A stretch of DNA of 64,000 bases, taken from NCBI RefSeq assembly GCF_036711975.1, contig NC_091975.1, forward strand, positions 5,768,501-5,832,500, in the 5' to 3' direction. Both the position numbers and the translations under genes were made by a program. Positions 3,201 to 44,539 of this stretch are shown in pieces; the first letter of the stretch is position 1, and each line of letters opens with the position of its first letter. This DNA comes from Onthophagus taurus (lineage: Eukaryota; Arthropoda; Insecta; Coleoptera; Scarabaeidae). Below the pieces are notes generated by a model. The model ran no database searches and was not told the origin of the DNA. It worked only from the letters and a program-made list of their open reading frames with translations.

Positions 3201-4055
3201 GGAGGGACGCAATCTTCAGAACCGAGTTGTGTTGAAGAAAAAGCTGGGAGAGTTTCCGACACGTTTTGTCACAACATGGAAAAGCCTATTGCGATGGTAA
3301 GAAGATGTAATGACGCACCATGCAAAGTGAAGTAAGTTAATTAATAACAAAATTAATCACAATTTAATAACAAAAAAACTAATTTTAGGTGGAGAACCGG
3401 AAAGTGGAGTAAATGTACGGCTTGTAAAAACCAATCGGGTATTAGAGTTCGTGAAGTTGAATGTGTAAGAGAAAATCCAATTAGTGGAGCTGATGATATC
3501 TTAGTGGAAGATACTTTTTGTCCCCCTCCGAAACCAGGTACAAGAGAACTTTGCGACGCCCAGAAATCGTGTACGAAAAAGCGCGAAATCGAAAACGAAA
3601 TTCCTTCTTACATACTCCGCGAACTTTGGTATCAAACAATCGTCGATTACGTTAACGCCGATTCAGCTGTAAGAAGAAGCATAATGAGCGCTCCACGTAC
3701 GATGAGGACAATTAATCGAGATTTAAAACGTCACCTTCAAAAATCTCTCAGCACCAATCCCGATGAATGTCTTAAACTTCCGATGCGCACCAATCCAAAG
3801 AAAGAGAAGCAATTAAATAAAGGCGATTTACACGTGGGGACAATTATTCAAGATCGTATTCCAAACGACGAACTTAAACTGATTGAAATTCCATTGAAAC
3901 AATTAGGGGTTTCAATGAACATCTCAGATTCGGTGTTTGAGAGTTTAGGAGAACAGGTTCCTGATACTTTAGATTTTGAACATAAAAGAGTTTGTACTGG
4001 AAAACAAGCGGCTGATAAATTAACAGCTGCGGCTCATATGAATAATACAATATAA
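283..4055 (+). CDS. ADAMTS-type metalloprotease, 3' part (5' exons lie before the window)
   Basis: Proposed join 283-406, 461-581, 3072-3331, 3389-4055; phases agree at every junction and give 389 residues to the stop. The first two exons match the ADAMTS spacer of the downstream paralogue (around IPKGSRNI and YYLNGE). The third carries a TSP1 repeat (EWNDCSVRCGGG) and the fourth a second, divergent one (WRTGKWSKCTACKN), followed by about 160 residues rich in K, R and D/E that resemble no TSP1, PLAC or CUB module I know. ADAMTS enzymes are secreted and act on extracellular matrix; the catalytic part is outside the window, so activity cannot be judged. A poly(A) signal follows the stop. The gene lies head-to-tail with a complete ADAMTS gene at 14828-41351, so a tandem duplication is likely. 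The spacer is cut by a 54-base intron here but is one exon in the paralogue. Confidence 0.88.
582..3071 (+). other. Large intron of the first ADAMTS gene
   Basis: This 2490-base intron separates the spacer exon from the first C-terminal TSP1 exon, with consensus GTAAGT donor and AG acceptor. Positions 1556-2250 are filled by CTAG-rich stem-loop repeats. An open frame at 629-790 ends exactly at a donor-like GTAAGT, but its phase does not fit the flanking exons. I see nothing else recognisable. Confidence 0.6.
1556..2250. repeat. Cluster of CTAG-rich stem-loop repeats (MITE-like)
   Basis: Three copies of a 46-base near-perfect palindrome (1644-1689, 1856-1901, 2053-2098) have stems GGGTTTAGCCG / CGGCTAAACCC around a CTTAAG centre. 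A degenerate fourth begins near 2219. Each is flanked by arms built from CTAG-rich words such as CTAGTTCTAGGTCTAG. The third copy is inverted relative to the first two, so the block is itself an inverted duplication. It lies in an intron. The same arm words recur near 25.62-25.85 kb and 37.81-37.87 kb, which suggests a dispersed non-autonomous element. Confidence 0.75.
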
Positions 4056-4659: not shown

Positions 4660-4815
4660 TTAAAACTCGTCGCTTCCACAGTAGCATATCGTCAACAGAA
4701 TAGTTGGAATAGCCACTGCCAATATCATTATATGTGCCATAGCTTGACAACTCAGCGGACGTCCTGCCTCACAGCAACATTGACAATCTGGTTCTTTATC
4801 CGCTTTACAACCCAT
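4660..4815 (-). CDS. Cys-rich single-helix membrane microprotein A (51 aa)
   Basis: A complete intronless ORF of 51 codons, too short for usual gene finders. The first 25 residues are hydrophilic with five cysteines, three of them adjacent (CQCCCEAG); then comes one hydrophobic helix (about residues 26-45) containing LAVAIPTILL, and a short tail with two more cysteines (YCGSDEF). Microprotein B at 8774 has the same order and a nearly identical helix start (LGVAIPTSIL), which is the main reason to believe this ORF. It is the only member on the minus strand, and a satellite array separates it from the others. No known family was recognised. A single-pass membrane protein is inferred from hydrophobicity alone. 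Confidence 0.6.
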   Translation of the reverse strand: MGCKADKEPDCQCCCEAGRPLSCQAMAHIMILAVAIPTILLTICYCGSDEF

Positions 4816-7047
4816 TTTATCACGAAAAATTTTTTGATGGAGTGTTTCTTAAAAATAAACGTCACATTAAACATCAATCAAAAAAAATCGCAACACACTT
4901 GATATTAACGAAATGAAATATCAAATATAGTATTACAATAAATTAAAGTGCAATTACGCGTAGCTCAAATCAGTTCATATCGAAAATGTCAACCAAATTT
5001 GTACAATTGGATTAATTGCAAATTCATTGGATCTGAATATTGCATTAAATTCTGTACCTATATTAAACTAAACCCATAATCGACGCAGTGAAATTAATAG
5101 TTTCACAAAGCAATTTGGAAAATGGAAAATTCGATTAATTGGTAACGAGACAATTTTTTCGGTCGATTTCCTACGGCGACACCCGAAGGAACGTTTTCAG
5201 TTCGATTGAATTAATCCGGGGAATATGATTTTCCATCGTTAAGTTCGGGATTAAATAGTTTTGCAACGAACGTGGTTTATTGCAAAATTTCGCCGCCTTT
5301 AAAAGTGTTTTAAAGCGAGGCGTAGTTGCAAACGGGTTCCGCTTTTAATCCCGCGTCCCATTCGCTATTTATTTATACGATGTTTTACATGCATAATTAC
5401 CGTTAATTGAGTACTAAGTGCGATTGGAATTGTATCACGTACGCCTGAAAGACCTCAGCTCTAATATATGCTAAGTCGGACGAGGCCCGTGTCGATTGTC
5501 ACTATTTCTAACAGGTGGGGACCTCGTTTACGTAATTGGTTTATTAAAACGACCGAAATTAAAGAAAAATTAATAACATCTCAATCGTTTCGGTTTGTTT
5601 AACGGTTCTTTACAGAGTATGTACATCCAATTCGACACGTTGATATATTCGCGCCCCATCAATATTTATGAGATCCGTTGTAACGCCAAAACTGCCCCGA
5701 TGCGGTCTATAGTTATACCGCGTAATAACAGGCATTACCATGAAATACGGGAGGCGCAGGTCGGATCTCGCCTGAATATTATCGTCAACGGACGTTTAGC
5801 GCAGCGCCTTGATACGAAAATTGGCCCACCAACGATTAAATGTCTGCAATTTGCCGCAGGAAAAGTAGTTCAACGCCAGTAACTAAGCCATCAAACCAAC
5901 ATAATCGCATAAAAACATCTACTACAAATAAAATCCAAGACTTGTACAAGACTCTTGAGTTGGTCGCTTCGTTGCACCTCCTCACAAAAATACGACATTT
6001 TAAATAACCTTTCGAGTGACAATACCTACAGCAAGTACTCGCCCGGGGGCAGTTTCCGGTTTGAAATTGCACGTTCTACATAATAGTAAGCGTTCTCTTT
6101 ATTCTATGGTCCAGTTACCGTTACCCCAGCAATGAAAGGCCTCACTTTATATAATAGCAAGAAAGACTTTCAAATATATTCTTCTTTTAATATTAAAGAA
6201 GTTGTTTACCAACTAAATAGAACTAAACTAAACCAAATAGAAATTACAGAAATTTCCCAATTAGTTTATAAAGGAATTATAATCAGAATTATTGTGAGAA
6301 TTATGTTGAGAACTACATCAAGAACTTATCGATCCTCTATATATCTATAAATCTGATTAATTGAGTTGAGAGATTAGTATTAGTTTCCGGGTAGTTCAAA
6401 ATATCTCCCTTATATCTTAGCAAACAGCTTCGGATTTATACGTTAAGGAATTTATTTAATACTAAGATCTAAACTCGGAACGGTTTGAGTAGTCGCCCGA
6501 GCAATGATTCGGTCCAATAAATTCTCAATGTCAGAAGCCGGGGCCGCACATCTGTTTGTATTTAATGAATGGACAGCTGTCTGCGAACGGGACGATTTAA
6601 AAGATTTAATCAAACATGAATCACGATGAAAATTACTACGAACTCGGCCCGGGGGGCACAGCTCGCGATCTATTAGCGTTCTGGGAGATTTTGCAATTCG
6701 GGCTAATCCACCCGAAATCTCAAATCTTGACAGACGAATGAGTCAGGGACTGGATTTTGTCATGGTTTTAATTGAGACTACTTTGAACGATTTAACTTTT
6801 TTTTTTCTTTTTAGACACGATTCTTGTAACCAATTAAATCTAAACCTATATTAATCTCGTTTCATTTACATTAGATAAAATTAATATGTTCTATTTAGAT
6901 TAAAAACACACCCAATTTATCAACCAATTTCTATTCGACAACGTTTAGTCTAGATTTCAATTAAAGTGGTCAAAAACGAGTTCGATAATAAGGCCAGAAG
7001 AATCTTTATGCAAAAGAGTAAAATAAAAAGAGTTAAAAAAAAATAAA
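4816..7047. other. Intergenic, no gene recognised
   Basis: AT-rich DNA between microprotein A and the satellite array. Short open frames, the longest being 95 codons ending at 5882, have no signal peptide, homology or splice context I can support. An isolated more GC-rich stretch occurs at about 5460-5900. Confidence 0.4.
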
Positions 7048-8612
7048 AATTCTATGAAAAAAGATCTTACATAAAATATTGTAAAATTACGCTTTTTTGG
7101 GTATTTCAAAAATGTTAAAATATCGCCTATAATTTATTTTTAGGAATTAAACGACGAAATATATCACAAATTAAAGCTAAAAGATTCTATTTTATGATAA
7201 AATATAATAACAGATAGGATTGGTTATAAAAATTCTATGAAAAAAGATCTTAAATAAAATATTGTAAAATTACGCTTTTTTGGGTATTTCAAAAATGTTA
7301 AAATATCGCCTATAATTTATTTTTAGGAATTAAACGACGAAATATATCACAAATTAAAGCTAAAAGATTCTATTTTATGATAACATAGAAAACAAACAGT
7401 GTTAATTATAGAAATTTTCAAAAAAGAAGGTTAAACAAAATTCTAAAATGAGGTTGTATCTAATAAATAACAAATAGGATTGGTTATAAAAATTCTATGC
7501 AAAAAGATCTTAAATAAAATATTGTAAAATTACGCTTTTTTGGGTATTTCAAAAATGTTAAAATATCGCCTATAATTTATTTTTAGGAATTAAACGACGA
7601 AATATATCACAAATTAAAGCTAAAAGATTCTATTTTATGATAACATAGAAAACAAACAGTATTAATTATAGAAATTTTCAAAAAAGAAGGTTAAACAAAA
7701 TTCTAAAATGAGGTTGTATCTAATAAATAACAAATAGGATTGGTTATAAAAATTCTATGAAAAAAGATCTTAAATAAAATATTGTAAAATTACGCTTTTT
7801 TGGGTATTTCAAAAATGTTAAAATATCGCCTATAATTTATTTTTAGGAATTAAACGACGAAATATATCACAAATTAAAGCTAAAAGATTCTATTTTATGA
7901 TAACATAGAAAACAAACAGTGTTAATTATAGAAATTTTCAAAAAAGAAGGTTAAACAAAATTCTAAAATGAGGTTGTATCTAATATATAACAAATAGGAT
8001 TGGTTATAAAAATTCTATGAAAAAAGATCTTAAATAAAATATTGTAAAATTAAGCTTTTTTGGGTATTTCAAAAATGTTAAAATATCGCCTATAATTTAT
8101 TTTTAGGAATTAAACGACGAAATATATCACAAATTAAAGCTAAAAGAGTCTATTTTATGATAAAATATAATAACAAATAGGATTGGTTATAAAAATTCTA
8201 TGAAAAAAGATCTTAAATAAAATATTGTAAAATTACGCTTTTTTGGGTATTTCAAAAATGTTAAAATATCGCCTATAATTTATTTTTAGGAATTAAACGA
8301 CGAAATATATCACAAATTAAAGCTAAAAGAGTCTATTTTATGATAAAATATAATAACAAATAGGATTGGTTATAAAAATTCTATGAAAAAAGATCTTAAA
8401 TAGAATATTGTAAAATTACGCTTTTTTGGGTATTTCAAAAATGTTAAAATATCACCTATAATTTATTTTTAGGAATTAAACGACGAAATATATCACAAAT
8501 TAAAGCTAAAAGATTCTATTTTATGATAACATAGAAAACAAACAGTGTTAATTATAGAAATTTTCAAAAAAGAAGGTTAAACAAAATTCTAAAATGAGGT
8601 TGTATCTAATAT
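7048..8612. repeat. Satellite array with two unit lengths (about 183 and 260 bp)
   Basis: Seven tandem copies begin at TCTATG (7051, 7234, 7494, 7754, 8014, 8198, 8380). Spacings are 183, 260, 260, 260, 184 and 182 bases. The longer unit carries an extra module of about 77 bases (it includes AGAAGGTTAAACAAAATTC) that the short units lack. Copies are almost identical, so the array was made or homogenised recently. Each copy contains the word AAATTAAAGCT, which also occurs in other arrays of this window. It ends 160 bases before microprotein B. Confidence 0.9.
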
Positions 8613-8773
8613 TAGAAGAAAATTGCGAAGCTTCATAGAAACTGTCAATTGAATCAACTGTCAATTAATAAATGAGTGATGATAACATCAATTTCCCACC
8701 AAATTATTTGTATATTTAGTTTAAAATTAATAAAAATGGTATAATCAATAATAAAAATCTTCAAATTGGAAAA

Positions 8774-8911
8774 ATGGTATCAACTGCTAAGTGCGCATGT
8801 CCTTTAGAAGAATCCAAATGTAAACCTCAACGGATCGATTACATAATCTTAGGTGTTGCAATTCCAACGAGCATACTTGTATTACTATGTTGTTGTAATT
8901 TTTCCAAATAA
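8774..8911 (+). CDS. Cys-rich single-helix membrane microprotein B (45 aa)
   Basis: A complete intronless ORF of 45 codons. The N-terminal 21 residues hold three cysteines (CAC and SKCK), residues 22-41 form a hydrophobic helix starting IILGVAIPTSIL, and the helix ends in three cysteines before a short polar tail. An AATAAA overlaps the stop, as expected for a very short transcript. The helix matches microprotein A on the other strand, and three similar ORFs follow within 1.1 kb, so chance is unlikely. Function is unknown. Membrane insertion is inferred; the cysteines could be acylated, metal-binding or disulphide-linked, which the sequence cannot decide. Confidence 0.65.
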   Translation: MVSTAKCACPLEESKCKPQRIDYIILGVAIPTSILVLLCCCNFSK

Positions 8912-9156
8912 AACTTAATAAAAGCTGAAATAAACCGAGAATAAAAAGTATAATTAAAACGTATTCAGTTAAAATGAGAGTAATAAAAAAAATGTATCAA
9001 AGCCTTCCTCGTTAAAATCATACGTCAAAATCGTTTTGACAACAAAATCATCAAAAAATCTTCATGCTTTCAACGTTCATTATCATTTAAATTCGATATC
9101 TAATTCGCGGTGCTAAATTAAAAAATTATTTGTCGATTCTCGATCACTAACAAATT

Positions 9157-9348
9157 ATGGTTGAAGATGTGAAATGCGGAATGTACCCGCCATGCAAGAC
9201 GGGTACAAAATATGATTTTCTACTTTTTGTTTTGGCTATTTCTTCGACCATAGCTCTGGTATATTTCTTGGGTGAAGGTGGTGGTGGTGGTGAAGGTGGT
9301 GAAGGTGGTGAGAGTGCTCCGCCTGCCGAAGAAGAGGCAGCCGAATAA
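9157..9348 (+). CDS. Single-helix membrane microprotein C with Gly/Glu-rich tail (63 aa)
   Basis: A complete intronless ORF of 63 codons. Residues 1-20 are polar with two cysteines (KCGMYPPCKTG), residues 21-38 are a hydrophobic helix (FLLFVLAISSTIALVYFL), and the tail is a Gly/Glu repeat encoded by GGT/GAA codons followed by an acidic Ala/Glu end. Members D and E share the pattern CG, then T-x-D or a close variant, then a helix with S at mid-position. The tail comes from a GGTGGTGAA microsatellite and is absent from the paralogues, so it is probably a lineage-specific extension. Function is unknown. Confidence 0.68.
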   Translation: MVEDVKCGMYPPCKTGTKYDFLLFVLAISSTIALVYFLGEGGGGGEGGEGGESAPPAEEEAAE

Positions 9349-9534
9349 TGAAATTAATCGGTATTAAAACAAAGATATCCGTGAATAATTTATGTAATGC
9401 TATCAAAATTGTGATTAATAAATAATTTTTTTAATAATTTATTTTTGATAATTCTTATTAATGATTTTTGAATGATTGAAAATTATTTCAATTTCCATAA
9501 TAATATGAAAAATACTATTGGGGAAAAAGAAATT

Positions 9535-9669
9535 ATGGACCAAAAAGCTATAAACACAATAGAAGGAAATAAAATAAAGAAATGTGGACCACCAACTCAA
9601 GATATAGCTGTTTTTTGTATTTCGATGAGTATTATAATATTAACGGTAACTTTATGTACTGATTATTAA
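9535..9669 (+). CDS. Single-helix membrane microprotein D (44 aa; start uncertain)
   Basis: The ORF is open from an ATG at 9472 (65 codons), with in-frame ATGs at 9505 and 9535. I chose 9535 because it gives 44 residues, the length of its neighbours; the extra upstream residues have no counterpart in them. The polar N-terminus ends KKCGPPTQD, and a hydrophobic helix follows (about residues 24-41, AVFCISMSIIILTVTL). It aligns with members C and E over CG, T-x-D and the helix. Intronless and AT-flanked. Function is unknown. Confidence 0.58.
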   Translation: MDQKAINTIEGNKIKKCGPPTQDIAVFCISMSIIILTVTLCTDY

Positions 9670-9847
9670 ATTAAATTCAATTAAAAATTGTTTTGATTAA
9701 TAAAATTATTGACACATTTTTTGTTTATTTTTTTTGTAAATTGTCAAATTAATATTTGAATATAAAGTCGAAATTTTAGTGTATTAAAATTACCTGAAAT
9801 AAAAATTTCAGTACTATTATTAATTAATAAACCACGCAAATAATAAA

Positions 9848-9985
9848 ATGGGTAAAGTAGAAGAAATTCCGAAAATTAATTGCTGCGGAGATAAAATTGG
9901 ATGCCAAGCTTTGACGCGAGATTCGATTGTATTTCTTGTAACGTTATCATCGGCTTTCTTAATATATTACCTGTTAACAAAATGA
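9848..9985 (+). CDS. Single-helix membrane microprotein E (45 aa)
   Basis: A complete intronless ORF of 45 codons. The N-terminal 25 residues contain three cysteines (NCCGDKIGCQ) and TRDS, followed by a hydrophobic helix (about residues 26-43, IVFLVTLSSAFLIYYLL) and a final TK. It shares CG, T-x-D and a mid-helix SS with member C. It is the last of four ORFs packed into 1.2 kb on one strand, each with its own AT-rich spacer, so they are probably separate transcription units made by tandem duplication. Function is unknown. Confidence 0.65.
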   Translation: MGKVEEIPKINCCGDKIGCQALTRDSIVFLVTLSSAFLIYYLLTK

Positions 9986-12900
9986 TATCAAGATAAGCAA
10001 ATTATATAATTATCTTATCCATTATTATTTTTTGTAATTATATCTAATAAAAAGTATGTTTTAGTGCTGAATCTGGTTAATAAGAACGTTATTTTCTTTT
10101 TTCCATATAATGCAAAAGCGTTAATACAAATTACACCCACGTTGGTCGCGTTATAACCACACGAGTCACATTATTCAAGTTGTTATTGTTCTTGGGGAAA
10201 TTGCCTTTTCGGCGACCATTGCATAAACCCATAAATTTTTCCGAAGCAAAAGAAAATAACATAAAAATGAAATTCTTATTAAAAACATCGAAATGTTGTA
10301 AGCGACGGGAAAACGGTTAAGTTATAAATAGATTAGTTTATGAACCAAGAAACATTGAATCATTTATTCCCAAACAATTTACAATTCGTTGTGCCAGAAA
10401 AACTTGAGAATTCGGGCGCCAGTATTTGTACGAGTCAGTCATAAATATTAGCGTCGACAAGCGCGTAATAGCATCCATTTTACGACATTTAAAACATGCT
10501 TAAGCGAGCACCAAGTTGCTGGGTACAAATAAATAATTTATCAATGCGTGCTCGTTAAATTTTGAAATGTTTATTTACATTGACGTAAACATGCTGTTCG
10601 AAAAACAACCAAATCTCAATTTCAAAGTTAATTAATTTAAATCTCTTTTTGTTTAACTGTATTTGGTAACGGAAATCGGTGGGAACTTGATGGGAATTTG
10701 GGTCGATTTTGCGTCAGAGATTTTCCTAGTAATAATTAACAAGTTTAACACGAGTAAAATGCGCGAAATACATACAACTAGATACGTGAGCGTGCCAACG
10801 CGCGAATTTTTCACTGTTTCAATATCACGTCCGCACTCGACCGATAGAAATATCAATTAAAAACAGGTCGCGGCCCACGGACGATCACGTAAGAGAAATT
10901 CTTCGAAATGGTTCACGAACAATCAATTATTGTCGCCATTTATGATTGATTTATTCTTACTCCAAATCCATTTAGGATAACGGAAGTCCAACACTTCTAG
11001 TCTAAATCTAACACTTCAACTCCAACACTCATTGTACTTTCAACGATAACAACCATTCAAATCGAACACAACAAGAAAACAACTTTTTCTATACATATAA
11101 TTTTTATTTTTAAAATTTTCCATGATGATTTCTAGCTTTCCCGGTATTCCCCAAACACAAAACCCCCCATTGTTTCCGAACGACATCGACGTCTCGTGAG
11201 AGCCGTAACCGAAAACCGTACAAGATGCCACGAGATACACTCGAAATATCAAATTTCACCCGGTTCTACTGTAACGGCACTCACAAGACAAGACAAAACC
11301 AGACGCAGGAAGCCCACCGAGACGGTTATGACGTCCACCTACTTTGCGTTTAAGTTAATTACGGACTTAGATGTCCCGGACGAAGGCATAAACTACAAGG
11401 TAACCAGTAATGCACCCGAGAAAGGCGAGCAGTTATCGTTCGGGTACCGGCTTTATGTCTCAATAAGTTACCCCTTGACTATGTTTACGGACACTCGAGG
11501 ATTACCAAACCTCAAATTACCCTTTGGATAATTATTTCGACAAGCTATATAAAACTTATTTTGTTATCTGAGATAAGTAGAAAATGTAGAATTTAGTTGA
11601 ATTAAAAAAATTATTCTATGTTAATGAAATTCTTATTGAAATAAATTCCAAATAAGCTCAACAAATATAGCATAAAATTTATTTTAGTTACGGACGCAAT
11701 ATACATTAAATACATACGAATTTATGAAGAGAATTTCAAAAACTTCAGGCATCTCATAAGACTCAAAATATAACTAACTCTTGGTTATCAACCATTTAAT
11801 CCAATCTCATTCTCATTTCAATCCAATGCTAATTATGATGTGGTTAGATTTGTGTTAGATGTAGTGCGGAAGATTTTAGTTTGTTTTAGATATTAATGAG
11901 ATTGGGTTGGAACGTTTTGGATTGGATGGAAGTGAGGGTGAGGTTGAGTTGATTTAGATGAAAGTTTGACAGAAATAAGTTGCGGATAAAGTTGGATGAT
12001 AGTGAAGTTTTTAGATGCATGGAGTTGCGGTTGAGTTAATTGAAGTCGGATGAAAATTTGGAATTGCTATGTTTGCCTGAGAAAACAGAATTATCTGAAA
12101 TTAAGATTTTACTTAAATGTAATTAGTTGAGTTGGGTTGGGTTGGGTTACATGAAAAAAAACTCACCGATGACTTCTTTTTTCTTTACATCAATGCGCCT
12201 TTTTGCCAACTCTATCAATGTTAAAAGTCTTCAACCTAATTTTGCTACAATTCCACCTCAATATCACGTTGTTGTTAACTCTGCACAACGCAGTGCGTAC
12301 CTTATCTTAAACTAATTAATGCAACAAAAAGAAAATTTAGATTAAATCGGAAATAATTAAATTGGAGAGATATATTTAGTCTGGCAAATGAAATTGACTA
12401 GACTCAACAACCGGAATAATTGAACTAAGCATAATACGTTAAATTTACAGTATCGTATGGTTTCGACAGCTGCCACAACTTTGTATATCAAATTACTTGA
12501 CCAAAGACCTTGAACTCTACTTTAATGATACTAATTTAAGTCTAAACTTGACAAACAAAAAAAAATTCATCGCGTGTTGAATCAAGGAGACCTCCCGTTC
12601 TTCAGAGCACATTAGAAGAGCCCAAAGATTACTCCTTACTGACAAAAAGAAAACACCGGGATGTAATTAGCTCAGTTACGTTTCCATCACCTTATTTGTT
12701 TCTTATTTTATCATCTCTTCTTCCTCTTCGGCTCATCCTTCTTTCGTCTCGTTTTATTATTCACCTTCTTCTTCACATCCTCATTTTTTTCGTTTTAAAC
12801 TTTTTCTTCTTCGTCTTCTTCGGCGGTCTTCTTCTGACCATTGTTGTCTTTTACTGGTGAGTCGGCGGCACGTTCCCAAAACGAGCACGACGTCTCTGGC

Positions 12901-17800: not shown

Positions 17801-20800
17801 TGTAAAGATCATCGTTGATAAATAAACCTTGAAAAAAGAAACATCGAACATTCTCCGGATTATATTTAGAAATTCTTCAAGCTTAGTTACATCTACGACG
17901 ACTTTAGAAAATCAGATAATACCCATACCATGTTCACAAAGACGACGAACACGAGGAGTAGCAGTACAAAGTAAAGTGTCTCGGAGTTACTAAATCAAAT
18001 TTTACAAACCCTTTGAAAAGAACAAAACTATACCGTAAATTCGTCCTCCACTTACATTAACGTCAATTAAAAGGTCGCTAAGCTGCGATTTACGAGCAGT
18101 AAAATTAATTAAAATTTCAACAAAAACGCAATTCAAATCGTGATCATAAAAGTAACGAACGTCCGTGGCGGCTTCACGTTATATTCAATTTTAGAACTTT
18201 TTTTCCATCTTTTTCTGCGTCGTCCCATGTATAATGCAGTTTCTTGGATAAGAAAACGAAAACCGGCTACCACGTAATATTTATGAGTCGTATTAACATC
18301 GCGTAACTGCGTGTTGTCTGTATATTTAATTTCTATGACGGTTCTTCTAAGTAATTCTAACCTTAGAAGGTTTGCTTAGGGATAAATAAAAAAATTTTTA
18401 AAGATTCGAAAATCTTATTAGTGTTGACAAGAAAATAAATCTTGATAAAACCCACTTAAACAATTTGATTTATACCTTTCATTTAAGAAAAAAACACACA
18501 CCCATCTAATGGATTTAAGGCGCTATATGCAAAAGCCGGTCTATAGAAGCTGTCTCTTCTTTGCCCTTTTAGAACGACCGATGGTATTATTCAATAACGA
18601 TTATCCTCGATAAATTGTCGCTTTCACGCAAACTAAACACTATACTTCTTCGCGCTTCGAGATTCGCTGCCTTCAGGAAGCAGTTTCCTTCTATATAGCG
18701 GAGTGGGTTCTTTAAGCTAGGGTTCTTCATACTCTCTTGAACTTATTACACCGAGCTAAAACTTGTATAATCTTTTTTTTGTCGGTCACGCCATGTTGTA
18801 TTTCTGCAACTCAATACTTAATGACCACCAGCCTCGGCAACTCCCATTCCTGGTTTAGAACGGCGTTTTCCACGGTCCGCCGATCTCCTGCTACCACTTG
18901 GAGGCCATTGTGGGAGTTACAAATCTCTGGACAGCGTTTAATTGGTGTTAAGACCGTGTGAATAAGTAATAAGATTGCAAATTTATGTATTAAGATCTTT
19001 TCTAAGCTTAAAAGCTTTCTAACGAATTTCTCGAAACGCATAAATAGGATGTAGTTAGGTTTTGTAATCTAATTGAAGTCTAAATCTCCTTCTTTAAAGA
19101 GAAATAAACATTAATTTTTTAAATATTTTAAAAAATTTTCATTAGATTAGGTGTTTAATTAATATTAGGTTAAAACAAAAAATATTTTCTTACAAAATTA
19201 CTGAAAAAAAAAAGTTTTGAAGCACCATCGATACAAAACTTAAATGGATTTCAAGAATGCGCGACTTGATATCATATCGTATACCAAAACGAAGCAGTTA
19301 TCAGCTATATTAAGACTAATTAAGCCGAGGTAGCTTGCGGCCGAATGGATACCAAAGCTGATTTTAGGGATGCGTGCTTAATTAAGCTGAGGTTACTTGT
19401 GGCTGAGGCACTACATTGATACCTAAAGTCAAGTTGGAATACAAGATGAAATTTTACACTAAGATTACAGTTGATGATAGTCTCCAAGCTGCAGAGGTAG
19501 CTTTGTATTGTACCACTGTGCTCTATTCTGATCTTTCATTAAAAATGAGGAAATCAATATTAATAAAATATTATGAAAAGCATAATCTAAAATCTGGATC
19601 TACCTATATATGTTGCTAAAAACCCTACACGCCACCGCATTCAAAGAATTCCAATTGGATCTTCTACATTATACCAAAAACAACTATTAGTACAAAAAAA
19701 AAGTTGTTACTTCTAAAGCATGTAAAGAAAATTATATATCCTTTGTAACGCTTTCCGGGTTTTCCCTTTATTGTTGGAATGGTCGGACGTAATCGATATC
19801 AGTATGCAATTAATCTTGAGTTACTCAAGCAATGATAATTCACTCATCAACTATTGGCTAGCCATTCCTTGATGTTTGGCACAAATTACAACCCGTCTTC
19901 CAACTATCCATAATTAACGTCAAACAAATAGAGGTGCTAAGTTGGGTTCAATCATGAAATATTATTTTGATAATAATTTGTATCAACGTTATGATTCTGG
20001 TTAATGATTAAATGATTTTAAACAGCATATTTTAATCATTTTCTGTGATGACTACAAAAACACTGTAAGAATTTAATATGGATTGGATATAACTTTATGG
20101 CGGTTCTGTTGAGATAAATAGTATCTGTTCTTTTGGGCAAAAAACAGATCTGAGTTAAGAATATTGCTAACGATGCCAATAGTTATCATTAACCCTTTGT
20201 GTCCCGACGGTACTTTAAAGTACCGGTAGTTTTAAACACTCATTTTAAAAAGAAAGCATTGAGCTTTAATTTAAAATAAGTCTCATTCCTTTATTTCAAT
20301 AAACACGGCTTCCAGAAATTTTTAAATTAGCATCATTTTTGACACTTATAGGTTATACGAAAATGTAAATTTTGTTTGAACATTCTTTTTCTCAATATTT
20401 TTCCAATCCAACCCAACAATTATTATACATCATTTGAAAGAAAAAGCTTTGAGCTTTAATTTCAAATAAGTTTCATTCCTTAATTTCAATAAATACGGCT
20501 TTTAGGAGTTTTTAAATTTGTTTCATTTTTGACACTTTTAGGTTATACGAAAATGTAAGTTTTATTTCAACATTCTTTTCTTAATATTTTTCTGATCCAA
20601 CCCAACGATTATTATAGATCCTTTTAAAGAGAAAGCTTTGAGCTTTAATTTAGAATAAGTCTCATTCCTTAATTTCAATAAACACGGCTTCCAGAAATTT
20701 TTAAATTAGCATCATTTTTGACACTTATAGGTTATACGAAAATGTAAATTTTGTTTGAACATTCTTTTTCTCAATATTTTTCCAAACCAACCCAACAATT

Positions 20801-23800
20801 ATTATACATCATTTTAAAGAGAAAGCTTTGAGCTTTAATTTAAAATAAGTTTCATTCCTTAATTTCAATAAATACGGCTTTTAGGAGTTTTTAAATTAGC
20901 ATCATTTTTAACACTTTTAGGTTATACGAAAATGTAAGTTTTATTTCAACATTCTTTTTCTTAATATTTTTCTGATTCAACCCAACGATTATTATAGATC
21001 ATTTTAAAGAGAAAGCTTTAAGCTTTAATTTCAAATAAGTTTCATTCCCTAATTTCAATAAATACGGCTTTCAGGAATTTTTAAATTAGCATCTTTTCTG
21101 ACACTTTTAGGTTATACGAAAATGTAAGTTTTGTTTCAACATTTTTTTTCGTAATATTTTTCCAATCTATCCCATCAATTATTATACATCATTTTAAAAA
21201 GAAAGCTTTGAGCTTTAATTTAAAATAAGTTTCATTCCTTAATTTCAATAAATACGGCCTCAAGGAATTTTTAAACTACCATCTTTTTTGACATTATACA
21301 CACATACTCTTTTTCTCAATATTTTTCTAATTCAACCCAACGATTATTATACAACGATTTAAACAGAAAGCTTTAAGCTTCAATTTAAAATAAGTTTTAT
21401 TTCTTAATTTCAATAAACACGGCTTCTAGGAATTTTTGAATTAGCATCTTTTTTGACACTTACAATTAGATTATGCAAAAATGTTAGTTTTTGCTCAATA
21501 TTGCTGTAGCTACAGGTCTGATAAATAAATATTCAAATTTACTGCGTCCACGAAAATGTCGTGGCGGAACTTCAAAGGAAAGAGGAAGTTGTGGAAACTG
21601 TTCTGCCAAAGCTAGACCCCACTCAAAATGTACTGCGTTTATTTATGTTGTAATGAAAGAAAGATCTGTTTTTCTGAATATCATAATGTGATTTACCTAA
21701 AGCAAGCGTTACTTATTTTCTAACGTCATAAAGAATGTATTATTTTTATATTGACAATAAAAGTTTTTGTTTACTGCAACATCACTAAAATATATTTTAT
21801 AATACCTGATGGTACTCTCAAGTACCATTATCCCCCTGGAATGGGGGATTGCATGTTTTGCTCAAATTGATTCCAAAGGCCTTCACTGAGTGTATTTTGA
21901 TAGCGTTTTAATTCTGTCACAAAGTTTCAACTTCTTGGGACACAAAGGGTTAAATAATAATCGTAATAAAAAAAATTTAATTTTATGTTATAGAGTTTTG
22001 TTCGAGATCGATCAGTTTCACACATGGTAATTGAGCCTTTAAGAAAGAACAACGGTTAATGGTCGGCTCGATTCAACACGCAACCATTAGCATTCTCCGT
22101 TTATTGGATTGACACGAGTGGTCGCTTAACGAACAACTACTTGTCAAATAGATACCATCACCGGTTGTTGAATATAAATTATTAATCGTTTACAAATTAT
22201 GTTTAAATAATAATAACTTTAAATACAGATCGAAAATTAATAGGAAATCAAATATTATTAGATCATAACGATTTTATATTGAAGGTTGTGCATTAACTGA
22301 AATTAATGTTAGGTCGTTTAATAAGGAAAAATGATAACTTTATCACACCTGCCCATACGAATTAGTCGATTTGCATTCGCCTAATTGAGACCACACGTTT
22401 ATCATAAAATTAACACCGACCACGAACGCTCAAGTCGAGTCGATTTATCGAGGATACTTCGATGCTGTCGTTAAGTTAATTAATGTTCCGGCGTACAGGT
22501 AATTACGTTCGTTTGATATATAAATATAAAGAGAATATAAAAACCTTTTCGAACCGCAGAGAGCGCAACCATAGAAGGAACCTTTAATTGCCACAAACAA
22601 TTACAAATAAATGATTGAGAGTCAAAACGATTTGTACTGCTTGTGCCGGGTTATTTATGGCATCTACTATGTTGGTGTAAGTTTGCGACACGAGTTAATG
22701 GTTTGGAGTGGTTATATGGTTTAGGTATTGATGCAATAGTGGATATACATTGTACAATTCCCCTTGCGTAAAAATTATTTTAATTGATTAATAGACATTC
22801 ATTAAAAAGCTCTTTCAAATTTTTTAAGCTAACTTCATTAAAATTGAATGTCCCATTGTTTGTGGAATTCAACTGAAACTACAATAAACCGTTATTGTTT
22901 CGAAATTTAGAATCCTCTAATCGCATCTGTGAATTGATCGAAATATTATGAGAAAATGTATTTCATGTAACTACACGTTAAGTTAAAAGTGGCAATTAAA
23001 ACACAAACACGCTATCGTAAATCTCAAATAGACGTGTTGTGTGCAAGTTTACGCCTCGATTGCTATTGGTAACGGTTTAAGTATCTGGATAGTTATTGGA
23101 TAAGTAAAGTTATTGCTTGAACACGCTACATAGTTGTAAAATTTTTAAATCAACCATATTAGATAAAAAAAGTAATAAGAATTTAGTTGGTAAGTTAATG
23201 AACGAAACCTTTCATAGTTATAAATTGGCGTTTCAAATGTGATAAATTTCCTTGTTAAAAGGTCAACAATAGATTGATAGCTAGTATGACATCGGCTTCT
23301 TGGGCGTTTAATGGCGCAGAAATCGCAACCGAGTGGACTTATCACTCCCCTGACCATAAATATGCGGATCTCGGCTTCCTTTACGTTGTCGTTGCGTAAG
23401 ATTTATCTACGTATCGCCGTAAACCAACACCACGTTTTTGCATAACGCGGTATTTACCTCTCAAGAACGTTAAACCACAAGTATGTGAAGAACTCAAACG
23501 ACAAAATTTTCTTATAGGATTGGGTTTATTCCCATAAAGAGAAAACAATCAGACTTCAGTTACATCTTTAAAGACCCTTACACACGCGATGTTGAAACGA
23601 CTTCATCGAGTTTGATGTAAACGATTTACGGTTCCATAAATGATTCATATAAATAAAGTGGAGACGTAAAAGTCTAATGGGGGGGGCGCCCCCTTGGAAA
23701 ATCATCGACGTCGCGTCGTCGGTTCTTATTTACGACTAGAACGCAGCCGGAGAGTAAATCAGCGACTAACCGCCCGACGACCAGGGCTCATGAATACGCG

Positions 23801-26800
23801 GCAAAGTATGGCAAAATGCGCTTTGCATTTCAAATCGGCGTCTACCATTGTTGTCTGGCAGATGCAGGCGCCCCGTCGGAGATGATGAACGCGTACCCGA
23901 TGTCCACTAAATTAAATCGCCTCGTTGTTGTTACGCCCCTCTCATTAATATTTACAATCGGCACTTTTAATCCCATCCCCATATCAACAAATTATCATTA
24001 TTACAAAGCTTTATAACACATCTACAACATAAAACGAATTATTGTATCTAAAAGAAACAATATGTCAACAAAAACATGAGTCTTACTAGTTTCGACTAAT
24101 AGCCATCTTCAGAGACCGGCGAGACGATAGCAACAAACCGCCCAACAACAAACTTTTTCCTTTATATTTCCACCTACTTCTAGGGCCCATATCTTTGTTA
24201 TTTAGAAAGATAGCGAAAAACTAAGCACACGGTTGGAAAGCTTGGTCTTTTCTCTATTAAACCGAGTTTTCGTCCGCCGATATGTTGATAATAAGAGCAA
24301 GAAAAAATAAGAAACGTCGCACTGCATTCAATTTACCTTAAAATTACCAAACTTCACGGCCTTGTGCAGCCGTTACCAGACGAAAATGTAATAAATGGTT
24401 TACATATTCGGAAAGAGTTGACCTTGGACTATCTTATTCCGAGTTTTCGTCCGTCAATATCTGTCGTCGTCTGTAAAAAAAACGCTCCGGAAAAAGAGCC
24501 TACAGTTGGCAACAAACTTTACCTTTGTATTTCCATCTACTTTTCGGACGGATATCTTTGTTACTTATAACGCTAGCGAAAAACTAAGCACACGGTTGGA
24601 AAGCTTGGTCTTTTCTCTATCATAAACCGAGTTTTCGTCCGCCGATATGTTGATAATGAGAGCGCGAAAAAAATTAGGAAAGTCGCGCTGCATTCAATGT
24701 ACCTCACAATTACCAAACTTCACGGCCTTGTGCAGCCGTTACCAGATGGAAATTTAATAAATGGTTTACATATTCGAAAAGAGCTGACCTTGGACTATCT
24801 TATTCCGAGTTTTCGTCCGTCAAGATCTGTCAGCGTCTGTCAAAAAAACGCCCCTGAAAAGGAGCCTACAGTTGGCAACAAACTTTACTTTTGTATTTCC
24901 ATCTATGTAATTTTCGGTCGGATATCTTTGTTATTTATAACGCTAGCGAAAAACTAAGCACACGGTTGGAAACCTTGGTCATTTCTCTATCTTAAACCGC
25001 TATTTTCCTCCGCCGATATGTTGATAATGAGAGCAAAAAAAAAATAAGAAACGTCGCGCTGCCACGAATTTTTGCCGAGGCTAAACCACGCTTGGGTCAA
25101 TAACTCTCTTATATGACGGGGAGAAAACTCTAGAACTATGTTCATCTTATGGGAAATTTTCTGCTCTTTTCAACGGTATATAACACATCTCAATCACACG
25201 TTTGCACAATCGTTTTTCAGCCCAGCAACAAACTTTCCCCTTGTATTTCCGTCTACTTTTCGGTCCAATATTTTCGTTATCTAGAAAAATAGCGAAAAAT
25301 TTGCAGCCCTTATTAGAAGGAAATTTAACAAATGGTTTACATATTCGAAAAGAGCTAACCTTGGCCTGTCTTATTTCGAGTTTTCATTTACAGACGCCGT
25401 CAATATCTGCCAGCGTCTGTAAAAGAAACGCACCTGAAAGACAACCTACAGGTAGCAGAACGCAATCACTTCTTACCCTAACTTTCTTATTTGGTGAAGG
25501 AAAAATTGGAACAATTCATTTCTAACTTCATTTCATGTTGACAGATAATTTTTCATTCACTCTTAATTTATTTAAAACCGTTTAAAAACATATAAGTACG
25601 AAGGCTTTCACGGCCGGTGTTAATAAAACTAAAACTAACACTAGCACTATCACTACAACTAACACTAGACCTAGAACTAGAAACTTTCGGGTTGAGCCGT
25701 GCGTTTTTTGAAAAAATGTTTGACGTTTCGGGTGCCATGTTGCAACCTTCTTCAGAAAACAAGTTGGAAGCAAACCCGAAAGTTTCTAGTTCTAGGTCTA
25801 GTATTAGTTCCAGTGATAGTGCTAGTGTTAGTTCTAGTTTTAGTTTTACGTTTAGAAACATGTTAAACTGTTCAAAAAGGAAAGATTATTTCATGTTACA
25901 CCTATTTTATCAGAATCTGGAAGAATTTGAGTGATTTTAGACTCGAATTGTTAAATTGTGTTTTGATGGTTTTGAATCTGGTAACGTTTGCATTTTAACT
26001 CAGTTCATCAATTTAAAAAACGCGTATGCAAACGCGTAAGCGAAGTGCGTCGGACACCGTTGGAAAGAGCAGAAAATTTCCCATAAGATGAATATAGTTC
26101 TAGAGTTTTCTCCCCGTCATACAAGAGAGTTAGTTATTGACCTAAGCGTGGTTTAGCCGCGGCAAAAATTCGTGGTTTAGGTAGTTCATAGTCAGAAAAA
26201 AGGATTGTGCAAACGTGTGATCACAGTGTGTCACACATCGTTGGAAAGAGCAGGAAATTTCCCATAAGCTGAATATAGTTGTAAAGTTTTCTCCCTGTCA
26301 AATAGGAAAGTTATTAGTGCAAGAAATATTTGCGTGTTTTTATCGGTAGGGGCTTTTTCAGGTGGATTTTTCTTACAGACGCTGATAGATATTGGCGGAC
26401 GAAAACTCGGAATAAGATAGTCCAAGGTCAGCTCTTTCCGAATATGTAAACCATTTATTGAATTTCCATCTGGTAACGGCTGCACAAGGCCGTGAAGTTT
26501 GGTAATTCTGAGGTAAATTGAATGCAGCGCGACGTTTCTTATTTTTTCTTGCTCTTATTATCAACATATCGGTTTATGATAGAGAAAAGACCAAGCTTTC
26601 CAACCGTGTGCTTAGTTTTTCGCTATCTTTCTAGATAACGAAGATATGGGCCCTAGAAGTAGGTGGAAATATAAAGGAAAATGTTTGTTGCTGAGCGGTT
26701 TGTTGCTATCGTCTCGCCGGTTCTTCAGAGACTAGCTTTTAAGAAGCAATAGTAGATTAAAATATCAAGTTTACATTATTAAAATTCTTTAAAGTTATAA

Positions 26801-29800
26801 GATAGATGAATACAAATACTGATAAAATGGATTTTGAATATAATTCTCCACAAAAATATTGAGTCTATTTACAAATAAATTGAAATTGAGTAACTTTCAT
26901 AAATAGAAAATTAATTTATTCATGGTGTTAATACAACATCGAGAATCCAATAAAATATTAAACGGTTAGTTTCCGATTTAATCAAAAGATAATTTAAGGA
27001 TATATGGTAATTGATCAAAAATTAAAGCGTCGATTTAATATCGAGATATGTTTCTGTTAATTTCAACCTCATTACTAAAACATCGTGTATACATCAAAGG
27101 ATTCGTTTATGCAAATGTAATACCATTTTACGTTGCGTTATAAAAATTTAAAAGCACCTCTTATCGCGCCATTATCCAAGGTTCCAAATATTTTACGGCC
27201 CGAATTTACATCGGGACGTCGACATTCTTTTGACAAGGCATAAACACAACGGTGTATTAGTGTTATAAAGCTTAGGCGACTGGTATAGAGACGTAAAAGT
27301 GTAAAATATCTCGTCGAGACACCGCAGGTGATTTCCATTTTAATTCGACGGACGTTTCCAGAACCGTCACATAAAAATGATATTGTTTAGAAAGCTAAAC
27401 ATCAAAAGAAGCCCGCCGCTATAAACGAGCCCGTAAAACTAAAGTTTAAACTATTTTACTTTAATCTTTACACACGAACGAAGCGAAATTGGTTTATTTA
27501 TAACTTCATTTTCACGGATTATTCTTTTTATTTTAAGGGTCTTATTTCTTGTTTGAACTTGCATTTTAAGTTAGGAAGTTTCATTAAATCTGATTTTTGA
27601 ACCCCATAATTTATTGTAAACAAGTCGAGTTGAATCAAACCTATAGCATCATATCTCAAAAACTAATTGAGATAAAATAACGAGATAAGAAGCGTTTTGA
27701 AGCAAATATAATCATTATTAATTGTGTCGAGAATTATTTTAGAATTTCTACAATTCTCGATGTTACGTTTATTTGAATCCAAACCCATAATTTATTGTAA
27801 CCAAGTTGAATTGTATCAAACTTGTAGCATCATATCTCAAAAACTAATTGAGATAAAATAACGAGATAAGAAGCGTTTTGAAGCAAATATAATCATTATT
27901 AATTGTGTCGAGAATTATTTTAGAATTTCTACAATTCTCGATGTTATGTTTCTTTGCATCCAAACCCATAATTTATTGTAACCAAGTTGAATTGTATCAA
28001 ACTTGTAGCATCATATCTCAAAAACTAATTGAGATAAAATAACGAGATAAGAAGCGTTTTGAAGCAAATATAATCATTATTAATTGTGTCGAGAATTATT
28101 TTAGAATTTCTACAATTCTCGATGTTATGTTTATTTGCATCGAAACCCATAATTTATTGTAACCAAGTTGAATTGTATCAAACTTGTAGCATCATATCTC
28201 AAAAACTAATTGAGATAAAATAACGAGATAAGAAGCGTTTTGAAGCAAATATAATCATTATTAATTGTGTCGAGAATTATTTTAGAATTTCTACAATTCT
28301 CGACGTTATGTTTATTTGAATCCAAACCCATAATTTATTGTAACCAAGTTGAATTGTATCAAACTTGTAGCATCATATCTCAAAAACTAATTGAGATAAA
28401 ATAACGAGATAAGAAGCGTTTTGAAGCAAATATAATCATTATTAATTGTGTCGAGAATTATTTTAGAATTTCTACAATTCTCGATGTTATGTTTATTTGA
28501 ATCCAAACCCATAATTTATTGTAACCAAGTTGAATTGTATCAAACTTGTAGCATCATATCTCAAAAACTAATTGAGATAAAATAACGAGATAAGAAGCGT
28601 TTTGAAGCAAATATAATCATTATTAATTGTGTCGAGAATTATTTTAGAATTTCTACAATTCTCGATGTTATGTTTATTTGAATCCAAACCCATAATTTAT
28701 TGTAACCAAGTTGAATTGTATCAAACTTGTAGCATCATAACTCAAAAACTAATTGAGATAAAATAACGAGATAAGAAGCGTTTTGAAGCAAATATAATCA
28801 TTATTAATTGTGTCGAGAATTATTTTAGAATTTCTACAATTCTCGATGTTATGTTTATTTGAATCCAAACCCATAATTTATTGTAACCAAGTTGAATTGT
28901 ATCAAACTTGTAGCATCATATCTCAAAAACTAATTGAGATAAAATAACGAGATAAGAAGCGTTTTGAAGCAAATATAATCATTATTAATTGTGTCGAGAA
29001 TTATTTTAGAATTTCTACAATTCTCGATGTTATGTTTATTTGCATCCAAACCCATAATTTATTGTAACCAAGTTGAATTGTATCAAACTTGTAGCATCAT
29101 ATCTCAAAAACTAATTGAGATAAAATAACGAGATAAGAAGCGTTTTGAAGCAAATATAATCATTATTAATTGTGTCGAGAATTATTTTAGAATTTCTACA
29201 ATTCTCGATGTTATGTTTATTTGAATCCAAACCCATAATTTATTGTAACCAAGTTGAATTGTATCAAACTTGTAGCATCATATCTCAAAAACGAATTGAG
29301 ATAAAATAACGAGATAAGATGCGTTTTGAAGCAAATATAATCATTATTAATTGTGTCGAGAATTATTTTAGAATTTCTACAATTCTCGATGTTATGTTGA
29401 TTTGAATCCAAACCCATAATTTATTGTAACCAAGTTGAATTGTATCAAACTTGTAGCATCATATCTCAAAAACTAATTGAGATAAAATAACGAGATAAGA
29501 AGCGTTTTGAAGCAAATATAATCATTATTAATTGTGTCGAGAATTATTTTAGAATTTCTACAATTCTCGATGTTATGTTTATTTGAATCCAAACCCATAA
29601 TTTATTGTAACCAAGTTGAATTGTATCAAACTTGTAGCATATCTCAAAAACGAATTGAGATAAAATAACGAAATAAGAAACATTTTGAACCAAATTTCTT
29701 AATAATCAATTGAATTGAAAATTAATTTCAGTCTTACAATTCTCGATGTTATGATCTTTTGAATGCAACCTAAGATGAAGGATAATAAAATTGGATTATT

Positions 29801-35800: not shown

Positions 35801-38800
35801 CCTACAAGTGACGTCGTACGTGGGCTTAAACATCGTGTTTCAAAATAATCGCGATCATAAATTCGCAAGATTCACACCTCCCTATATCTATACCACCTGT
35901 ATACGCATGTTTACAATAGTATTAACTCATAAATAATTTCGTTTTTAGATGAGCCATGTGAATTATATTGCAGCGACATCAATGATACTGTAATTGTAAG
36001 CTGGGGAGTTGCTTTAGATGGAACGCCTTGTAATGTAGGAAGGAGAGATATTTGCATTTCTGGAATATGCAGAGTAAATTAATTAAAATTTTATATTTTT
36101 AATTAAAATTATAAACGTGATTCATTTTGTAGAAAGTTGGTTGTGATTGGACGGTAGATTCAGATGCAGAAGAAGATGTTTGTGGGATTTGCCAAGGTGA
36201 TGGTACAAAATGTAGGATAATTAATGGGATTTATAAGAAGCAAGGACAAGGAAATGATTACATAGAAATCCTATCGATTCCAACCGGATCAAAAAATATT
36301 CGCATCGAAGAAATGGATTATTCCGAAAATTACATCAGCATAGGAAGCGTATTCGAAGACAGATTCTTTTTAAATGGCAGAAGACATATCACTTTACCCG
36401 GTGAATACACAGTAGCTGGGACGCAAGCTTTGTACGAAAGGGATAATGAGTTGGAGAAAATTAGAATTCCCGGCCCGATAAAAGAACCTATTTTGGTATA
36501 CGTAAGTCAATTCATATTCATTTTAAGCTCAAAATAAGATTTAAATTAATTTATTATATCATTAAAGTTTTTTTAGAGGAAACGAGACTTGCATATAAAC
36601 TAACTAATTGCGAGCGTAAACAGGGTTACCAATGCAACGAGAGCGTAATTCAATTAAACAAAGTGTTGTCCTCGAAACGAATGGTATAAAAAGAGGTCCG
36701 GGTGACTGGGAAAACGTTTAATTTAGCGGAGTTCCTAAAATCTCCTTTTAGTAGCGACTAATGTGTCCAAACTTTTCAACCCTAAAACGTCCCAGTTTTT
36801 TTAAGCTTCGGGAACGAATTCGTGGATCATCAATTGATTAATTTTCCGGTTTAAATTGTATAATTTAACTTAAACAACTCCATTTTGTACACGAAGTAAA
36901 AGGGTATTTCGATAAGCATCAACAATAAACCTTGTACGTAAGCCCTTTTAAGGTACTGACCTTCTTATTGCTTTATTACCGGGCGATCTTCAAGTAACGT
37001 CACGAAACTATTATGCGAACAAAGCGTTCATTGTGTACCACCGTTCACGTTTACCCGTAATTTATCAAGAAACATAATGGAACGAAAGGATTTATCGTTG
37101 ACTTATACACAACACTATTACTTTTCCTATATAAATTAAATCTAATTTGAAATAATTTGAATATTTTTATTTTTCGTAGATTGTTTTTCGTGGTAAATCG
37201 AAAAATCCAGGTGTAAAGTACCAATACACTCTATCAGGTTATGAAGATCCAGAAAAGCATCTTCAGTATGAATGGCAACTAGGTGACTGGACTCAATGTT
37301 CGGTTACTTGTGGAGGCGGCAAACAGTTTCGAAAATCCATCTGCAGGGAATCTTTATCGGGACCGGTGACGTCGTTCGACGATGTCACATCAACCATTGT
37401 CGCCGAATCTTTTTGTTCGCGCGATGCTCAACCGGACACCGAAGAAAGAAGTTGCAAGGATGAACCGTGTCCTTCACATTGGTGGGTTGGACCGTGGCAA
37501 TCTTGTCCCGTCACATGTACCAACAAAGTAAGAATAAAAAAAAACTTTTACCTTAAAAACGCTTTATTAAGAAGTTAAACTGGTAACTCGATATTAAAAC
37601 CATAATTTTACTCTGTCCCACTGAATAGTACAGCATATCATGACATTTAGGTTACTTCGAAGTATATTGGGGTGTATCAATGTAATATATACCGGGAATT
37701 TCATATAATTCGCAACATATATATGCACTTCCACTGTCCCACATAAATTGTAACATAGCTTAATAAAAATATGCAACATAGTGATATCTTATGCTAACTA
37801 GCGCTGCTTAGTCACTAGTTTCTAGTTCTAGGTCTAGTGTTATATTAGTACTAGTGTTAGTCTAGTTTTATTTGCCATACACATTTTTCTGCTCCCTGCA
37901 GAGTGGGGTTTACTGCAAACTCTGATGCATGGTAATTATCGAAATAACATTTTTTAGTATCTTTGAAATGTATTATATTACTAGGTGTTGACATAACATG
38001 ATTTTTGCCCAGTGCTATAAATGTCATAGCACTCAAGTAAATTCCTTTATCTACGAACTGGATTGAGGTGTTTAACCCTTTGTGTCCCAAGAAGTCAAAA
38101 ATTTTAAAACTTTGTGACAGAATTAAAGCGTTATTAAAATACACTCAGTAAAGGCCTTTGGTATCAATTTTAGCATAATATGCAATCCCCCCATTCGAGG
38201 GGGGTAATGGTATTTGAGAGTACGATCAGGCATTAAAATATGGAAAAATAATGAGAAAAAAATGTTTAAATAAAACTTACATTTTCGTGTAACCTAAAAG
38301 TGTCAAAAAAGATGCTAATTTAAAAATTCCTGGAAGCCGTGTTTATTGAAATTAAGGAATGAAACTTATGATAAATTAAAGTTCAAAGCTTTCTCTTTAA
38401 AATGATGTATAATAATCGTTGGGTTGGATTGAAAAAATATTGAGAAAAAAATGTTTAAACAAAACGTACATTTTCGTATAACCTAAAAGTGTCAAAAAAA
38501 AATGCTTATTTAAAAATTCCTGAAAGTCGTATTTATTGAAATTAAGGAATGAGACTTATTCTAAATTAAAGTTCAAAGCTTTCTCTTTAAAATGATGTAT
38601 AATAATCGTTGGGTTGGATTGGAAAAATATTGAGAAAAAAATGTTTAAACAAAACGTACATTTTCGTATAACCTAAAAGTGTCAAAAAAAATGCTTATTT
38701 AAAAATTCCTGAAAGTCGTATTTATTGAAATTAAGGAATGAAACTTATTTTAAATTAAAGCTCAAAGCTTTTTCTTTAAAATGATGTATAATAATGGTTG

Positions 38801-43431: not shown

Positions 43432-43698
43432 TTCACTTGTAGCGAATGTAATAAGGTATTGACTGAGTATCGATCGAAATAAGAATTTATTGAAAATATA
43501 AAGTCTGTACTTTGTTTACCCTAGTAATTTGTATGGGGACGTTTATTACAACAACTCTGAGTAATGTAGACATGAAAGAACGATAATGGACATACAATAC
43601 ACTCTGTTTAACCATCGCTAATATCCCGGTACTGTTATTTCGTGGTAAAAAAGATTTTTTATTCGATTCGTTTTTAGATTTTAAACCGTCGATTTACT

Positions 43699-44290: not shown

Positions 44291-44539
44291 GATGGAAAGT
44301 TTTAAAATAACTCGACTTAAAAAAAAGAAAACTTTAAAAGCGTTGTTAATTACATATTTAAATATTGAGTGGAAAAAAACGAAAGTAGGACCGGAGTTGT
44401 TTATTTCATTTAGGTATCAACTTGAATCAGTCTTGATTATTTTTAATAAAATAAAGATTATTCATTATAATCCGGCTCTGACCAAAAAGTGTTAATTTTA
44501 AAATTTATTTTACAACGAACTTAATCCAATTAAAACTTG

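Follow-up and report, generated by a model that had tools for sequence, protein, structure and literature searches.

Five clustered short open reading frames between two ADAMTS-like genes of Onthophagus taurus are probable unannotated genes for single-helix microproteins

Five short open reading frames, ORFs A to E, found in the 64,000-nucleotide stretch of Onthophagus taurus DNA analysed here (the window, which lies on a 17.4-Mb contig of a genome totalling 290.8 Mb), are probably real, unannotated and intronless genes for single-helix microproteins, located between two ADAMTS-like genes and originated, in all probability, as old tandem duplicates. That the cluster consists of real and unannotated microprotein genes, perhaps restricted to this lineage, appears likely from the frames themselves, their clustering, the context of their start codons, their coding bias and the similarity between pairs of the encoded peptides.

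ORFs B (8774-8911; 45 aa), C (9157-9348; 63 aa), D (9535-9669; 44 aa counted from the ATGG start at 9535) and E (9848-9985; 45 aa) lie head-to-tail on the plus strand, non-overlapping and separated by spacers of 178-245 bp, within 1,212 bp in total, and ORF A (4660-4815; 51 aa) is located on the minus strand. If counted from its first in-frame ATG (9472), which is followed by A, ORF D has 65 codons. Each of the five frames specifies one 17-residue hydrophobic stretch with a mean Kyte-Doolittle value of 2.29-2.64, preceded by 19-28 residues that contain 1-6 cysteines and separated from the stop by 2-6 residues in A, B, D and E and by 25 in C. The N-terminus of A carries six cysteines, including a CCC, and its helix is followed by a 6-residue tail; B has three N-terminal cysteines and a CCC at the helix end; C combines a CGx4C N-terminus and a helix with a 25-residue Gly/Glu-rich acidic tail, and in E the CGx4C N-terminus is followed by a helix that runs to the C-terminus, the helices of C and E being devoid of cysteines. 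Inspection by eye revealed CG as common to C, D and E (as CGP in D), CGx4C as common to C and E, T-x-D in D and E with K-Y-D in C, a serine at mid-helix in C, D and E, and VAIPT in the helices of both A and B. The original prediction of four intronless ORFs of 44-63 codons arranged head-to-tail in 1.2 kb, each with a polar Cys-containing N-terminus and one hydrophobic helix, with CG, T-x-D (K-Y-D in C) and mid-helix Ser recurring in C, D and E and with a B helix resembling that of a fifth ORF at 4660-4815, is thus confirmed in all these points, the A-B resemblance being also unmatched in the control comparisons described below. An AlphaFold2 model of E, built from the single sequence, consists of one helix (residues 16-44; mean pLDDT 80.9).

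The claim that such a repeated architecture in neighbouring ORFs is not expected by chance was borne out by shuffled DNA and by the genomic background. A strict filter asked for 40-70 aa, a helix of at least 1.9 with 10 or more residues ahead of it, including a Cys, and a start codon context of purine at -3 with G at +4. It retained four ORFs in region 8601-10060; out of 3000 dinucleotide shuffles, 2996 contained no such ORF and four contained one, figures that are optimistic since the filter was written after the peptides had been seen. Without the start context the real region still yielded four ORFs, and 84 of the 3000 shuffles gave one and a single shuffle gave two; dropping the Cys requirement as well left the real count at four, with 148 shuffles giving one and 4 giving two. 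The fairer test is a 304-kb background from the same genome, comprising both strands of the window, its 200 kb of flanks and 40 kb from four other contigs: only seven ORFs passed the strict filter there, five of which are A-E, ORF A included, and no second site in the 304 kb presented two such ORFs within 1,250 bp. When start context and Cys were both dropped 50 ORFs passed, and one other locus (L025) reached four; two of its ORFs have an exact second copy there, which is the pattern of a repeat array.

Coding signals point in the same direction. All five ORFs start with ATGG preceded by A at -3; a purine at -3 with G at +4 is found in 9.6% of 522 intergenic ATGs, so that its occurrence in five out of five has a chance probability of about 8e-6. 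In a codon model derived from 3727 codons of hand-picked frames taken as neighbouring genes, the ORF frame scored above both other forward frames in all five cases. The codon signal of A and B is weak, as one of the reverse frames slightly outscores the ORF frame in both. The codon scores of A, B, C, D and E were reached by 12, 19, 0, 4 and 7, respectively, of 152 control ORFs, which come partly from the same intervals as the background model. The GC content of the ORFs is 0.28-0.48; it falls to 0.15-0.26 in the spacers surrounding B-E, and the DNA next to A has 0.26-0.33. Together, these features support the view that A-E look coding, beyond chance.

The relationship among the five peptides was assessed against a control set of 44 further helix-encoding ORFs from this genome, L025 being left out; this set provided 946 control pairs and 400 random sets of five. 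The sum of the pair scores of A-E has a z of 4.7 versus segment-wise shuffles, the maximum in the 400 control sets being 3.10. Pair A-B (score 54) was reached by none of the 946 control pairs, C-E (46) and A-E (44) by one each and D-E (36) by nine; the scores of B-D (31), B-C (28), C-D (25), A-D (24), B-E (19) and A-C (12) were reached by 31, 62, 112, 136, 292 and 632 control pairs, respectively. For comparison, four unrelated real helices, drawn from two adjacent proteins of presumably receptor-like and synaptotagmin-like nature, scored 14-31 in their six pairs, with a z of 2.25 for the set versus shuffles. C, D and E alone gave a z of 3.79 (1/2000 shuffles reached it), and the likeness resides mostly in the helix (1/2000 shuffles), the N-termini alone being marginal (reached by 104/2000). 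At the DNA level no pair of ORFs was clearly alike, the pair scores being reached by 11-168 of 200 shuffles. Relatedness is thus supported for A-B, C-E, A-E and D-E, and the scores of the six pairs left do not clearly exceed the controls. Since these four pairs connect all five ORFs, A-E are probably old tandem duplicates, which would have kept their architecture upon a fast divergence of sequence. The notion of one family, as put forward by the original prediction, is therefore supported in part, by the four of ten pairs that beat the controls, and does not extend with the same clarity to the remaining six.

The likeness could alternatively reflect convergence on the single-helix architecture by microproteins that emerged independently and de novo from A/T-rich spacer, an origin that we regard as unlikely. 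Thymine-rich intergenic DNA is widely able to encode transmembrane domains in yeast, according to the accessible text of PMC7005711, and a de novo origin would fit ORFs without clear DNA similarity, six of ten pairs not clearly above controls and the lack of homologues in the protein searches. However, dinucleotide-matched shuffled DNA yields no such set of ORFs, the ORFs are richer in GC than the spacers, and the score of A-B, C-E or A-E is attained by no more than a single one of the 946 control pairs. A different arrangement, compatible with coding and related ORFs and also rather improbable in our judgement, would place B-E on one polycistronic mRNA, like tal/pri, Sarcolamban and sloth1/2. 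The common strand and the short spacers of B-E speak for it, and in Drosophila single transcripts are known to encode related single-helix peptides, as far as the available sections of PMC9681215 describe; the sloth1/sloth2 ORFs are, however, only 5 nt apart in the same account, far closer than B-E, and A lies on the opposite strand. Against a polycistron also argues the presence of AATAAA, on the plus strand, no more than 90 nt after every stop of B-E: at 8917-8922, 5 nt past the B stop (with more copies at +17, +28 and +70), at 9417-9422 (68 nt past C), at 9699-9704 (29 nt past D) and at 10046-10051 (60 nt past E). This four-out-of-four occurrence, which also counts in favour of B-E being genes, was reproduced by 38/2000 shuffles, and 278/2000 had the motif in all four spacers when these were considered whole. 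Neither AATAAA nor ATTAAA was found within 180 nt of ORF A.

That A-E are no genes at all, being open by chance or pieces of a repeat, a virus or a decayed gene, seems improbable. Short ORFs are common, and B is preceded at a short distance by a satellite array whose end is at 8542; on the other side stand the shuffles, the 304-kb background, the start context and the codon bias, together with a DNA search in which region 8611-10060 matched only itself in the genome (very common words being skipped) and with the lack of any confirmed match to viral contigs for A and C.

Upstream of these ORFs the motif CNAAATT, suggested by a Drosophila testis element, occurs on the plus strand at 8699-8705 (B), 9113-9119 (C), 9404-9410 (D) and 9769-9775 (E), and is absent upstream of A. 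Its presence upstream of all four B-E was reproduced by 9/2000 shuffles; the upstream regions of B-E have 40 common 7-mers versus 27.9 expected, which lies within the shuffled range (10-50) and thus indicates no general excess of upstream motifs. The published TCE of testis-specific genes is ATCAAAATTT or CTCAAAATTT near the start, as given in the accessible part of PMC3439415. Exact copies of ATCAAAATTT or CTCAAAATTT are absent from the window. Allowing up to one mismatch, the element is found upstream on the own strand of D (9402-9411) and E (9799-9808), and the window contains 81 matches versus 67 expected, a count that 8/100 shuffles reach. The published TCE is therefore not clearly enriched in the window, the cluster does not conform to a TCE-type testis promoter, and CNAAATT can be taken as a weak lead only.

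Relatives outside the cluster were sought at several levels. In a collection of 5.77 billion proteins no candidate shared three words with B alone, and the A-E alignment retrieved eight word-sharing candidates, none at E <= 10; this search depends on 5-residue words in common and considers up to 100 of them, so that distant relatives could be missed. As a positive control, ATP23 from another contig of the same genome retrieved 557 proteins at E <= 0.001, the best among the 120 matches listed being an Onthophagus taurus protein identical over 255 aa, and insect proteins are therefore present in the collection. Pfam returned no family for any of A-E at E <= 10 and NCBIfam no match; C had no confirmed match in prokaryotes. 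A PHROGs match for A (E 0.24) is at chance level and was rejected, as was Photosystem II protein M (E 4.3; A-E alignment against solved structures), which was taken as chance. A literature search in a library with few subscription papers and no preprints found no paper on an A-E family. The original prediction that no named family resembles the cluster holds for Pfam, NCBIfam and the 5.77 billion proteins, and has to be qualified by the fact that small single-helix microproteins are a well-described class, as the accessible text of PMC4359375 indicates, so that it does not imply a new kind of protein.

In the own genome, a peptide search with a strict first pass, which distant paralogues could escape, matched A, B, D and E only to themselves and C also to one weak relative on another contig, C1 (E 1.15). 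The matching peptide (L026 1498-1692, corresponding to C1:2458980-2459141, minus strand) is a tiny single-helix frame beside the ATP23 gene; it may be a last exon, since the open frame continues upstream of its ATG. Its Gly/Glu tail is like that of C, the full-length score being reached by 20/2000 shuffles; upon removal of the tail 1837/2000 shuffles reach the score, and helix and N-terminus are unlike those of C. A search with the C1 peptide retrieved itself, C (E 0.77) and a match on a further contig, C7 (E 0.19; 46% over 28 residues, in a 91-aa frame). Neither the C1 nor the C7 match was counted as a family member. With a loose filter, a single additional hydrophobic ORF was detected in ten kb beside the C1 locus.

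The Mst(3)CGP genes of the Drosophila testis (Mst84D, Mst87F) are clustered and encode proteins of Cys-Gly-Pro repeats, which are not known to contain a helix. Like A-E they are tiny clustered genes, and CG is present in C, D and E, with CGP in D; A-E differ by their helix and by a window in which the TCE is not clearly enriched. Membership in the CYSTM (cysteine-rich transmembrane module) family, PF12734, was rejected given that A-E match no Pfam profile at E <= 10. CYSTM proteins are, as predicted for A-E, very small, Cys-rich and tail-anchored, with 5-6 cysteines in the helix, 3-4 of them consecutive, and an acidic residue next, according to the sections of PMC10217909 available. The CYSTM pattern was likewise discarded: B shows CCC at the helix end without an acidic residue after it, the CCC of A is N-terminal and the helices of C and E are Cys-free.

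By architecture (fewer than 100 codons and one predicted transmembrane helix; 44-63 codons in A-E) the five peptides belong to the class of transmembrane smORF peptides, as an apparently undescribed family. In Drosophila 32% of annotated smORFs have one predicted transmembrane helix, and several smORF peptides are located at mitochondria, as stated in the accessible text of PMC4359375 and PMC11674832 for the former and of PMC4359375 for the latter. Both groups share the size and the single helix (PMC4359375, PMC11674832, in part); translation has been detected for many Drosophila smORFs, whereas A-E, for which no homologue was found, are known here from their sequence. The Sloth1/Sloth2 and Sarcolamban loci resemble the cluster in comprising neighbouring, distantly similar single-helix peptides; Sloth1/2 (79 and 61 aa, 27% identity) act on respiratory complex III, and these loci are multicistronic, with Sloth1/2 ORFs 5 nt apart and human orthologues, again as described in the available sections of PMC9681215. 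In contrast, A-E are spaced, have AATAAA after each of B-E and have no known relatives. On present evidence they do not constitute a new kind of system.

Tail-anchored proteins are defined by having one helix no more than about 30 residues from the C-terminus and by the lack of an N-terminal signal peptide, and A-E comply with 2-6 (C: 25) residues after the helix and 19-28 before it. What is proposed here on transcription, translation, topology, partner and tissue is inferred. Each of A-E would be a tail-anchored protein: a C-terminal helix without signal peptide leads, by the general logic of such proteins, to post-translational insertion, since a helix so close to the stop leaves the ribosome only after termination. 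The short Cys-containing N-terminus would then reside in the cytosol, as judged from helix position only, and A-E could act as small accessory subunits, their helix packed alongside a larger membrane protein and their juxtamembrane cysteines free for acylation, disulfides or metal binding. Characterised smORF peptides usually regulate canonical proteins, according to the accessible text of PMC11674832, and by analogy A-E may likewise be regulators of canonical proteins. Expression in male reproductive tissue has a somewhat less than even chance in our estimate, guided by the precedent of novel dung beetle genes recruited to this tissue, as reported in the available part of PMC8382682. More doubtful still, it can be speculated that A-E form a scarab-restricted and so far undescribed family of tail-anchored microproteins with Cys motifs, maintained in tandem between duplicated ADAMTS-like genes, encoded under their own promoters and contributing interchangeable subunits to a membrane complex in one tissue, for which male reproductive tissue would be the foremost candidate. 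If A-E are translated, annotation would have missed five genes in a beetle whose other proteins are in public collections, and one locus would illustrate the ways in which transmembrane microproteins arise and diversify within a lineage, be it through duplication or through repeated de novo origin. Clustering combined with start context may also reveal microprotein genes without detectable homologues.

On either side of the cluster lie plus-strand ADAMTS-like frames, the first set between about -4.3 and 4.05 kb and the second from 31.4 kb onwards. Frames directly upstream of the window, on the same strand, contain reprolysin propeptide, reprolysin and ADAMTS cysteine-rich domains, and are followed by frame 3357-4052 (plus), whose TSP1_ADAMTS match is barely over the cut-off (24.0 vs 23.8 bits) and which has a 41% identical relative 18 kb upstream. 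A 123-aa ORF at 3684-4055 was rejected as a further small gene, being the end of this longer ADAMTS-like frame. The second set comprises propeptide, reprolysin, TSP1 and ADAMTS spacer frames, and each set presumably forms one gene, as suggested by order and strand. Accordingly placed between them, the cluster could sit in a 5' intron of the second gene, and ORF A, 605 bp beyond the stop (4055) of the first ADAMTS-like frame and on the opposite strand, may overlap the 3' UTR of the first. Between about -14 and -6.6 kb, a listing of frames suggests similar, putatively ADAMTS-like ones on the minus strand.

The satellite array between A and B (7043-8542) consists of 183/260-bp units and ends about 230 bp before B. 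It is one of eight longer tandem arrays in the window, whose repeat units measure about 165-190 bp or 260-379 bp; the others are located at 20232-21462, 24146-25062, 27603-29768, 38244-40505, 42793-43239, 57215-60331 and 62598-64000. Repeated frames with an RRKRxLxFPEG-like motif, or their likely continuation, were found at 43255-43515 (minus), 44132-44416 (minus), 53503-53832 (plus), 56543-56764 (minus), 61315-61539 (plus) and 61546-62034 (plus); four of the six (43255, 53503, 61315 and 61546) had no Pfam match at E <= 0.01, and we presume a resemblance to the DM4/12 insect family. A reverse transcriptase frame at 45437-46985 (RVT_1, E 9.2e-18 for 45437-45901) probably belongs to a non-LTR element and lies in a stretch with a strong G-over-C skew, of 0.457 at 46-48 kb.
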